Below are positions 1-59,007 of a stretch of DNA of 64,000 bases, one piece after another. The translations under genes and the position numbers were made by a program. The first letter of the stretch is position 1, and each line of letters opens with the position of its first letter. A model generated the notes under the pieces. That model had not been told where the DNA came from. It was given only the letters and a program-made list of their open reading frames with translations, and made no database searches. Where the stretch lies: assembly GCA_945861535.1 (NCBI GenBank), contig CAMAUZ010000019.1, positions 1 through 64,000 of the forward strand, in the 5' to 3' direction. This stretch comes from Akkermansia muciniphila. GTDB lineage: Bacteria; Verrucomicrobiota; Verrucomicrobiia; Limisphaerales; BJHT01.

Positions 1-180
1 CCCACGCACGTCCGGCCGGCTAAAGCGGGAACTTCGAACTCACCGACCGCGTAAACGCGGGACTCCGAACTCCAAACTCCGAACGCGGAGCCGCCTGAAG
101 GCGGGACTCCGAACTCACGGGCCGCGTAAACGCGGAACTCCAAACTCAGAACGCCAAACTCCGAACTCCGAACCATCGAA
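1..180. repeat. REP cluster upstream of the RAYT gene
   Basis: Four short stem-loops lie here: CCGGC-TAAA-G(C)CGG (slightly degenerate) near 18-30, CCGCG-TAAA-CGCGG near 48-61, CCGCC-TGAA-GGCGG near 93-106 and CCGCG-TAAA-CGCGG near 123-136. Each is followed by a tail of the type AACTCCGAACTC. The stem sequence changes between copies but both arms change together, while the TRAA loop and tail stay constant. Similar units follow the transposase gene and recur at 7.5-7.75 kb. No gene is visible in this stretch. Confidence 0.85.
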
Positions 181-246
181 TTGGACACCGCGTGGGGCGG
201 AAAGTTTGGAGTTTCGCGTTTATGCGGCTCGGATAAACATCCCGCC

Positions 247-867
247 ATGTCCCAGCCCGAATATCGCTGGCGTCAACTCACGCCCGAACAGCGCGCTGAA
301 TTGCTCGCGTGGCGCAAGGAACGCGGGCATCCGTGGCATTCGCCGCCGCATCGGCCGAACTTCGGGCATCTGCGTTTCCACATCAGCGCGGCCTGCTTCG
401 AGCACCAGCACTACATCGGCCACCGGCCGGAGCGCATGGACGGTTTCGCGCGCGATTTGCTGGCCGTGTTCGCCGCGCACGCGAGCCAGACGTTCGCGTG
501 GTGCGTGCTGCCGAATCATTACCACGCGCTGGTCGAAGCGCCGGACGTCCTCGGCCTGCTGCGCGAGTTGGGAAAGTTTCATGGCCGCACATCGCACGCG
601 TGGAACGGCGAGGAACACTCGCGGGGGCGCAAAGTCTTTTTCCGCGCCGTGGAGCGGTCGATGCGTTCGGAGCGGCATTTCTGGGCGACGCTGAATTACG
701 TGCATCACAACCCGGTGCATCACGGCTACGTCGCGCGCTGGACGGACTGGCCTTGGAACAGCGCCGCGCAATACCTCGCTCAGACCGACCCGGAGGAAGC
801 GAGACGCATCTGGCGCGAGCATCCGCTGGGAGATTACGGCAAGGGCTGGGACGACCCGGAGCTGTGA
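247..867 (+). CDS. REP-associated tyrosine transposase (RAYT, Y1 HUH family)
   Basis: This 206-residue protein is predicted to nick and join single-stranded REP DNA with a single catalytic tyrosine. The HUH metal-binding motif is N-H-Y-H (His91 and His93). The usual RAYT motif around the catalytic tyrosine follows as N-Y-V-H-H-N-P-V (Tyr151), and the W-P-W-N-S motif near 168-172 is typical of the family. I chose the ATG at 247 because the longer reading frame from 181 runs through a degenerate REP copy (about 208-230). Inverted repeats with a TRAA loop flank the gene on both sides, which is the standard arrangement of a RAYT with its substrate repeats. Length and all motifs look intact, so it may be active. 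Family assignment is secure; activity on these particular repeats is inferred. Confidence 0.9.
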   Translation: MSQPEYRWRQLTPEQRAELLAWRKERGHPWHSPPHRPNFGHLRFHISAACFEHQHYIGHRPERMDGFARDLLAVFAAHASQTFAWCVLPNHYHALVEAPDVLGLLRELGKFHGRTSHAWNGEEHSRGRKVFFRAVERSMRSERHFWATLNYVHHNPVHHGYVARWTDWPWNSAAQYLAQTDPEEARRIWREHPLGDYGKGWDDPEL

Positions 868-1330
868 CGTTTGGAGTCCCGCGTTTACGCGGTCCGGGTT
901 TGGAGTTCCGCGTTTATGCGGTCGGGTGGCGGCGCGGGAGGGTTCGGGAGTGGGGGTGGTTTGGGAGGCAGCAGTTCGCTTCGCCCGCGCACGTCGGGCC
1001 GGCTAAAGCCGGAACTCCAAACTCACCGACCGCGTAAACGCGGGACTCCGAACTCTGAACTCCGAACGCCGAGCCGCCTGAAGGCGGGACTCCAAACTCC
1101 GAACACTCAAGCAGGCCACCCGCGCGGGGCGGAAGGTTCGGAGTCCCGCGTTTACGCGGTTCCGGGAGTTTGGAGTTCCGCGTTTACGCGGTCGGGTGGC
1201 GGCGCGTGGGCGTTCGGGAGTGGGGGCGGTTTGGTAGGCAGCAGTTCTCTTCGCCCACGCACGTCGGGCCGGCTAAAGCCGGAACTCCGAACTCACCGAC
1301 CGCGTAAACGCGGAACTCCGAACCCCAAAC
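868..1330. repeat. REP/BIME cluster downstream of the RAYT gene
   Basis: At least nine stem-loops with TAAA/TTTA or TGAA/TTCA loops occur in both orientations. A composite unit of about 150 bp is repeated at about 899-1054 and 1168-1320: an inverted CCGCG stem-loop, a G-rich spacer, a CCGGC-TAAA-GCCGG stem-loop and a CCGCG-TAAA-CGCGG stem-loop. The same unit occurs again at 7.57-7.73 kb. The organisation resembles bacterial interspersed mosaic elements built from REPs. No gene is seen between 868 and 1409. Confidence 0.85.
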
Positions 1331-7529: not shown

Positions 7530-7760
7530 GGGGCGGAAAGTTCGGAGTTCCGCGTTTACGCGGTCCGGGAGTTTGGAGTTCCGCGTTTACGCGGTCGGGC
7601 GACGGCGTGTTGGCGACCGGGAGCGGGGGCGGTTTGGGAGGCAGCAATCATCCCCGCCCCCGCACGGACGGGACCGCCTGAAGGCGGAACTCCGTACTCC
7701 CGGACCGCGTAAACGCGGAACTCCGAACGCCAGAGCCGCGTGAACGCGGCACTCCAAACC
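7530..7760. repeat. REP/BIME cluster between propeller and DUF4838 genes
   Basis: Five stem-loops of the TRAA-loop family are present: inverted CCGCG stems near 7546 and 7580, CCGCC-TGAA-GGCGG near 7672, CCGCG-TAAA-CGCGG near 7705 and a CCGCG-TGAA-CGCGG variant near 7735. The spacer between 7600 and 7670 is related to the spacer in the RAYT cluster at 0.9-1.3 kb, so this is a dispersed copy of the composite unit. The rest of 7438-7844 shows no gene. Confidence 0.8.
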
Positions 7761-17136: not shown

Positions 17137-17298
17137 GGAGCGCGGCCTTCAGGCCGCAGCAGCGTGCGTCCTGTCGATGGCGAGCGAATTTCCGAACCGT
17201 GTTATTGAACTCACCCAATGGTGAGCGGGAGGACGCGTTTGGACTGTATGACGCGGTCGCTGCGGGCGGACGTTTCTGCGGCCTGAAGGCCGCGCTCC
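17137..17298. repeat. 162-bp inverted-repeat element, copy 1
   Basis: The element is bounded by facing stem-loops GCGGCC-TTCA-GGCCGC and GCGGCC-TGAA-GGCCGC with GGAGC/GCTCC outside. Here the inverted repeat extends further outward, since CGTAACCATTCAGTGAG (17113-17129) is mirrored at about 17306-17322. A copy of the same counted length lies at 58846-59007 with a recognisably related interior. The remainder of 16960-17566 shows no gene. Confidence 0.8.
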
Positions 17299-41927: not shown

Positions 41928-42068
41928 CAACTTGGGGGGAGCGCACGCAGTGGGACATTCGGACGGTGAAGCGGCGTGAACGCCGCGCGCCGGTACCGCA
42001 GCCGTCCCCGGCTGCGAGTTGCGGGGCGTCCTCGCCCCAGCATTCGGTCCGCGCGGCGAGACGCCGCC

Positions 42069-58845: not shown

Positions 58846-59007
58846 GGAGCGCGGCCTTCAGGCCGCAGAAACGTGCGTCTCGTATGCGATCAACGAATTT
58901 CCAGACGATCGTTTCCGACGCACCAAATCGTGAGCGGCGGGACACATTCAGGTTGGTGGGAACGGCCGCTGCGGGCGGGCGTTTCTGCGGCCTGAAGGCC
59001 GCGCTCC
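58846..59007. repeat. 162-bp inverted-repeat element, copy 2
   Basis: It has the same bounding stem-loops GCGGCC-TTCA-GGCCGC / GCGGCC-TGAA-GGCCGC and the same counted length as the copy at 17137, with related interior words (GAATTTCC, GTGAGCGG, GCTGCGGGCGG). The outer arm homology extends on the right to about 59033, next to the DUF1501 stop codon at 59035. Confidence 0.8.

Follow-up and report, generated by a model that had tools for sequence, protein, structure and literature searches.

We consider the locus at the very start of the window, the 64,000-nt stretch of an Akkermansia muciniphila assembly analysed here, to be a REPtron, in which the enzyme likely binds the TTYA loop and the tag side of its REPs and the stem need only pair; we give this reading a probability of roughly three in four. 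The locus combines a single-copy HUH/Y1 RAYT with what appear to be its cognate REPs, of the form GTTY-GGAG-TN-(5-bp stem)-TTYA-(stem) and often arranged as inverted pairs (REPINs). By analogy with known systems, the enzyme would most likely grip the folded single strand via the TTYA loop and the tag side. The stem would only have to pair, and its upper pairs may drift by compensation, so that several stems could be served by one RAYT. The tag probably also guides the choice of cleavage site, as in IS200/IS605 and REPMb. Binding, cleavage and mobilisation by the window RAYT are steps that we infer from sequence comparison.

The RAYT gene and its product

The gene occupies positions 247-867 on the + strand as a complete ORF of 206 aa, and encodes a TnpAREP-like Y1/HUH transposase with the motifs NHYH at residues 90-93 and YVHHNP at residues 151-156. 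The NCBIfam model REP_Tyr_transpos scores the protein at 71.2 bits, below its curated cut-off of 80, and matches 49/49 scanned family proteins at E <= 1e-3; Pfam Y1_Tnp returned nothing for the window RAYT at 1e-3 and 13.5 bits at a loose threshold. A profile of 49 family members (our protein alignment holds 49 of the 81 family proteins) finds the E. coli TnpAREP, 4er8, with an E-value of 8.5e-9. The AlphaFold model of the protein, which has a mean pLDDT of 86.9, places this structure at the top of both rankings with a Z of 14.2 over 144 residues and an rmsd of 2.9; the unrelated folds of Thg1 and ribosomal S6 are also listed, far under it. The product of 247-867 is a RAYT with the TnpAREP fold.

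Family motifs are NHYH, present in 77/80 aligned proteins, [WF][HFYC] and Y[IV]H[HN]NP. Among the best 80 of 122 matches, the nearest named homologues come from verrucomicrobial MAGs, the closest being a 'Verrucomicrobia subdivision 3' protein at 81% identity (L081). The window RAYT is single in its own genome, where the next matches show 27-32% identity at E >= 2.5e-5, a count bounded by the 96.6% completeness of the assembly (7.94 Mb in 169 contigs).

REP units in the window

As the sequence-only reading had proposed, the RAYT at 247-867 sits amid REP hairpins. About 14 units surround it, 13 with at most one stem mismatch and one degenerate, spanning positions 16 to 1319. The strand form relevant to the RAYT is GTTY-GGAG-TN-CCGNN-TTYA-N5, that is, a tag, 2 nt, a 5-bp stem and a loop. 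The earlier form of the repeat, CCGCG-TAAA-CGCGG-GACTCCGAAC, becomes GTTC-GGAG-TC-CCGCG-TTTA-CGCGG when read on the complementary strand; the AACTCCGAACTC tail that it described is thus conserved, but is really the 5' tag GTTY-GGAG-TN of the other strand.

Upstream of the gene, a decayed unit with tag GAAG and one stem mismatch (16-35), GGAG-TC-CCGCG-TTTA (47-66), GGAG-TC-CCGCC-TTCA (91-110) and GGAG-TT-CCGCG-TTTA (122-141) lie on the - strand, and the degenerate unit GGAG-TT-TCGCG-TTTA-TGCGG (208-227) lies on the + strand. Position 1 of the window is also the first base of contig C19, so this upstream cluster may be cut. Downstream, two + strand units, GGAG-TC-CCGCG-TTTA (873-892) and GGAG-TT-CCGCG-TTTA with one mismatch (902-921), are followed on the - strand by GGAG-TT-CCGGC-TTTA (999-1018), GGAG-TC-CCGCG-TTTA (1030-1049) and GGAG-TC-CCGCC-TTCA (1074-1093). 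Then come GGAG-TC-CCGCG-TTTA (1140-1159) and GGAG-TT-CCGCG-TTTA (1172-1191) on the + strand, and GGAG-TT-CCGGC-TTTA (1269-1288) and GGAG-TT-CCGCG-TTTA (1300-1319) on the - strand. All three stems that had been named before, CCGCG, CCGCC and CCGGC, therefore occur around one RAYT. A second cluster of the same REPs spans 7544-7755, with + strand units starting at 7544 and 7575 (CCGCG) and - strand units at 7674 (CCGCC), 7705 and 7736 (CCGCG). With up to 2 mismatches allowed, the 21-nt REP pattern matches the window 24 times, against 0.16 expected and at most 2 in any shuffle. Positions 1678-1820 hold another dispersed repeat, GC-rich and with palindromic repeats around GGCAGGCAGGGATGCCTGCCCC, and similar DNA is present in a stretch of a congener.

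Conservation and variation across 81 RAYT loci

We compared the window with the best 80 of 122 matched homologous loci, whose source records are verrucomicrobial, acidobacterial, planctomycete, KSB1, lentisphaeral, Desulfonema and others; the resulting 81 loci, which are not all independent lineages, amount to a natural mutagenesis of a REP. A 5-bp TTYA hairpin lies within 800 bp of the gene in 77 of the 81, and at least two do so in 73. The other four lack such a hairpin in perfect form at that distance; three of them contributed an unpaired unit to the 78-locus set described below. When the best 80 of 122 were scanned free of any loop or tag, the near flanks yielded 381 hairpins with a TTCA or TTTA loop and 8 with the next loop; the far flanks, twice as long, yielded only 30 TTCA/TTTA hairpins. 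Conversely, a search of the flanks of all 81 loci for the five tags followed by T and 5 bp, with any loop, returned TTYA in 366/388 cases.

In the same set (window plus best 80 of 122), the first spacer base is T in 366/371 units, and the main tag classes share a conserved GTT 5' of the tag. The commonest tag of each locus, where present in at least two copies, is GGAG in 28 loci, GTAG in 24, AGAG in 10, GGTG in 5, TGAG in 2 and others in 2. Among the 58 GKAG-type loci, 57 have one tag per locus and 34 carry at least two stems. No CT or CA cleavage dinucleotide is conserved at a fixed offset in the two main tag classes.

Pairing was assessed in an alignment of one unit per locus, chosen with pairing not required, from 78 of the 81 loci (58 distinct rows; 11 chosen units not fully paired). 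Here 97.2% of the cells are paired, compared with 62.2% when shuffled and at most 47.4% when slid, and the covariation score of 0.803 drops to 0.156 on shuffling and never exceeds 0.222 on sliding. Since these sequences share ancestry, the shuffle gives no probability, but the slid control is clear. All five stem pairs change on both sides. Sequence comparison at this scale demonstrates the architecture, the constancy of the loop, the single tag per locus, the kept pairing and the several stems per gene. The loci thus separate what is near-invariant (loop T, T and A, the spacer T and GTT) from what is set per gene (the tag) and what is freely compensated (the stem). Pairs of close homologues, for example L090 (GGAG, E136) versus L091 and L092 (GTAG, D136), make the recognition of small, perfect REPs directly testable. 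The published RAYT-REP search rule requires a GTAG or GTGG tag and a stem of at least 7 (PMC6006769); as there described, it would miss GGAG, AGAG, GGTG and TGAG tags and 5-bp stems, implying that such systems are probably under-counted.

REPs across the host genome and its relatives

Genome-wide, SSSSSTRAASSSSSRAMTYY has 125 matches, versus 7 for the reversed pattern. Stretches of the host genome contain 135 GGAG-TY-N5-TTYA-N5 units, pairing not required, of which 111 are fully paired. These stretches were picked around sites already matched, and are therefore biased to known stems. In the 35 distinct units, stem pairs 1-3 barely vary, being C-G, C-G and G-C in 31, 29 and 31; pair 4 is C-G or G-C, and pair 5 is mainly G-C or C-G, with A-T twice. 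Fifteen of the 35 are fully paired, against a shuffled mean of 5.3 and a largest shuffled value of 11. The claim of covarying stems therefore holds for all five pairs across the 78 loci, where pairing is kept, but in the host genome only the two loop-proximal pairs, 4 and 5, really covary. Because pairs 1-3 are near-fixed there, recognition could extend to the lower stem as well. The loop, which had been called fixed, keeps TTYA, but its position 3 is T or C.

Head-to-head pairs number 64 in 72 host-genome stretches (GCGGC family included, see below). The spacing of CCGCG pairs is 43-44 nt, that of CCGCC/CCGGC pairs mostly 78-87 nt, and hybrid pairs such as CCGCA/CCGCC at 43 nt exist.

The genome also holds a second, larger REPIN family, GGNGCGCGGC-N-TTYA-N'-GCCGC, whose loop-free pattern has 441 genome matches against 6 in the control. 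Its 6-bp stem starts with GCGGC, its TTYA loop is near-constant, its apex pair is G-C, C-G or A-T, and its pair spacings are ~76-86 and 140-142. In the window it occurs at 17137-17298, 41972-41991 and 58846-59007. No RAYT flanked by GCGGC-family REPs was found in the host genome.

Among 58 genomes, the host's included, three hold a RAYT at E <= 1e-20, namely the host's own, G026 and G016 (a fragment), with hairpin counts of 121, 26 and 14. Two genomes without a RAYT at that threshold, G001 and G052, have 130 and 63 hairpins, and most others have few. This mismatch between REP numbers and RAYTs makes the association a loose one. The assembly of G001, a congener, is fragmented, with one contig starting inside such a REP array, so its RAYT may be missed; the REPs of G052 are perhaps relics, or go with a RAYT that is more distant. 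G001 is ~89% identical to the host genome in aligned stretches, and clean empty sites between the two were not found, the intergenic DNA being too diverged. CCGCC/CCGGC REPINs are kept at sites common to both genomes and are tandemly multiplied in G001, as at L249:4015-4591 and L236:4046-4460, with tandem periods of 246 and 138 bp, where the host genome has single copies.

Why one gene is accompanied by several stems

Compensatory drift may have company. A possible addition to it, which we hold only tentatively, is arm identity: the two arms of a REPIN would differ so that each folds separately. Stems differ in 48/69 outward (inverted) neighbours but in 12/59 tandem ones (Fisher p 2e-8, with repeats within a locus not independent) and in 38/46 inward neighbour pairs, and this dependence on orientation implies that two REPIN arms often have different stems. 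With DNA parameters, the two-hairpin fold lies above the best fold by a median of 3.3 kcal/mol in the 48 pairs with unequal arms and of 13.6 in the 21 with equal arms, a gap that arises largely by construction. Bertels and Rainey proposed that a two-hairpin 'clover', not a long hairpin, is the transposase substrate (PMC3116915). Against arm identity, the commonest host-genome pair has equal arms (CCGCG/CCGCG, 21/64), and heterodimers had already been noted, with their preference given 'no obvious explanation' and protection from clearance suggested, in the account of PMC3733652.

It is unlikely that the stem variants are separate REP families, belonging to different RAYTs or to none and clustered by insertion. 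The genome-wide split of the stems would fit this, with CCGCG mostly at 43-44 nt in the TIR element described below and CCGCC/CCGGC at 78-87 nt; the copies thus sit in different element types, a complication for any single account. REPs also do insert into REPINs, a GCGGC-family unit lying inside a REPIN at L172:4111. However, all three stems surround the sole gene of its type found, at least two stems occur in 34 of the 58 GKAG-type loci (from the window and best 80 of 122), and hybrid CCGCA/CCGCC pairs exist at 43 nt. The stems hence do not segregate with different RAYT genes, only one gene of this kind having been found. At least two other Y1 genes of the host genome carry quite different REPs: a RAYT-like gene on contig C94 (L262) has GGAG-C-GCCGAGC-ATT-GCTCGGC and one on C118 (L265) has GTAG-CTCGACAT-TCCA-ATGTCGAG. 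We therefore rejected an origin of the stem variants from several host RAYTs in this 96.6% complete assembly, since REP kinds go with genes and these stem variants do not. The other Y1 genes have none of the window hairpins within 1.5 kb, in scans that cover a part of the possible REPs.

It is more improbable still that the hairpins are kept for the host roles attributed to REPs (transcription termination, mRNA stability, supercoiling; PMC8266576, PMC3733652), with pairing selected at the RNA or DNA level without a RAYT, because the loop, the T spacer and a locus-specific tag are conserved beside the RAYT in 77/81 loci (window plus best 80 of 122), and terminator or mRNA use gives no cause for an invariant TTYA and a per-locus tag.

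Relation to known REP systems

What stays constant here is best explained by the recognition mode of REPMb, because the invariant loop bases match its essentials. REPMb, from the group 3 REPtron of Marinomonas sp. MWYL1, consists of a tag, 2 nt, 5 bp and a TTTA loop (Corneloup et al. 2021; PMC8266576). Loop bases T12, T13 and A15 are described there as essential and position 14 as free. The stem mostly tolerated changes that kept its pairing: those at positions 2 and 3 left activity unaltered, whereas one at position 4 reduced cleavage; mismatches were harmful, and the tag helps choose the cleavage site. The window REPs share the perfect 5-bp stem, the TTTA loop and the tag 2 nt off, and differ in having GGAG rather than GTAG as tag and in a loop position 3 that is nearly always T or C. 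They are likewise short, with the tag no more than 2 nt from the stem, as in group 3 / subclass 2.5. The family's motifs, NHYH and Y[IV]H[HN]NP, differ however from the subclass 2.5 set in Table 1 of PMC6006769 (DH[LF]H, WQ, YI[VI]ANP). The combination of non-2.5 motifs with Mb-like REPs suggests that the architecture is older than the subclasses or convergent, a placement made by way of the motif table.

By its motifs the family resembles subclass 2.8 of Quentin et al. (2018), listed in that table with NHYH, W then often Y or H, Y-I/V-H-x-N-P and ~200 aa. As described there, however, subclass 2.8 has long GT[AG]G REPs and 8 cyanobacterial members, whereas here 5-bp REPs occur across many phyla. 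With the E. coli REPtron (group 2 / subclass 2.2; 4er8), the window locus shares the fold, the position of the tag before the stem and the presence of several REP types for one RAYT, in E. coli within mixed BIMEs. In the account of PMC8266576, REPs of E. coli have a long, bulged form in which the bulge matters and the loop is not read; the window system lacks both the long bulged REP and the DHLH motif of group 2. REP families 17, 19 and 20 of Opitutus terrae, compared by their description in PMC3733652, are also verrucomicrobial and share the many copies, the dimers and the stem subfamilies, but have GTAG or GTGG tags.

Two further claims of the sequence-only reading are not supported. Known REPs were said usually to have a fixed stem, yet within most GTAG families there are subfamilies whose stems carry alternative, complementary residues, and Di Nocera et al. 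describe REP homo- and heterodimers (PMC3733652). Recognition by loop plus pairing was published in 2021 for group 3 REPs (PMC8266576). The system was also held to differ from the GTAG type. REPs are defined by a GTAG/GTGG tetranucleotide 5' of a palindrome (PMC3686654); the GGAG of the window is a variant of it, still 5' of the stem and an ordinary REP tag, and the GTAG homologues L091 and L092 share stems and loop with the GGAG locus L090. Earlier papers thus already cover stem subfamilies, heterodimers, REPs with 5-bp stems and reading of the loop. The literature searched, outside which much subscription literature lies, gives no account of the window RAYT family, of GGAG, AGAG or GGTG tags, or of a tag-residue change.

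Tag and protein residue 136

The second base of the tag tracks residue 136 of the protein, a lead from the sequence alignments that is not established against phylogeny. Residue 136 is E in 24 and D in 8 of the GGAG loci, and D in 23, E in 1 and N in 1 of the GTAG loci; the column was picked from all columns and is fifth by mutual information. In the profile alignment, E136 aligns with residue 100 of E. coli TnpAREP (paper numbering), which is among the tag-contacting residues reported (PMC8266576; PMC6006769). That aligned residue is E in E. coli though the tag is GTAG, which counts against a universal residue-136 rule. On the best tree, built without the partial protein of L142, the tag changes at least 11 times, with few branches well supported. 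The supported branches give 3 independent tag/136 contrasts only, without significance; when branch support is ignored, the best tree gives 11 pairs, of which about 6.3 fit, 1.5 go another way and 3.3 show no difference.

A speculative joint reading, which we hold to be possible but doubtful, would make TTYA a universal contact and the stem a pair-only spacer, and would give each gene one tag whose second base (G/T) is read by residue 136 (E/D), with the hairpin also taken by the unrelated TIR element described below. If true, one REP may owe its spread to transposases of two kinds, and a simple specificity code would hold over a large RAYT family in many phyla.

A TIR element carrying CCGCG REPINs

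Many CCGCG copies outside the RAYT cluster have probably been spread by another transposase, because they sit in a TIR element of ~130 bp that is bordered by target duplications of 3 bp. In REPINs drawn from the host genome and the congener G001, both GAGCCTGTTTGAAAA-like TIRs (at most 5 mismatches each) bound 22/36 of those with 43-44 nt spacing and 0/36 of those with 78-87 nt spacing; in the GCGGC family they bound 0/12. All 22 TIR-bounded elements measure 129-132 bp, and identical 3-bp flanks, mostly TNA, occur in 8 of the 22 (shuffled mean 3.57; 8 reached in 30/5000). Its terminal inverted repeats, fixed size and short target duplications give the element the features of a MITE. The 3-bp TNA duplications and GAG ends recall subgroups of the IS5 family. 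Matches to the TIR pattern number 49 in the genome and 0 in the control, and no autonomous partner was recognized among these 49. The RAYT cluster in the window is without GAGCCTGTTTGAAAA ends.

MITEs, and the REP-TIR composites of P. putida and P. fluorescens described in PMC3733652, are comparable in that a REP unit is joined to unrelated terminal repeats in many copies; here, by contrast, it is a whole REPIN that is enclosed, in an element of 129-132 bp that ends in GAGCCTGTTTGAAAA and has TNA duplications. Three loci (L193, L194 and L213) have 43-nt REPINs with CCGCA/CCGCC arms, lack GAGCCTGTTTGAAAA ends and share common outer repeats that are TTGACACTGCCCC-like, a sequence pattern suggesting that a TIR element of another kind has captured them.
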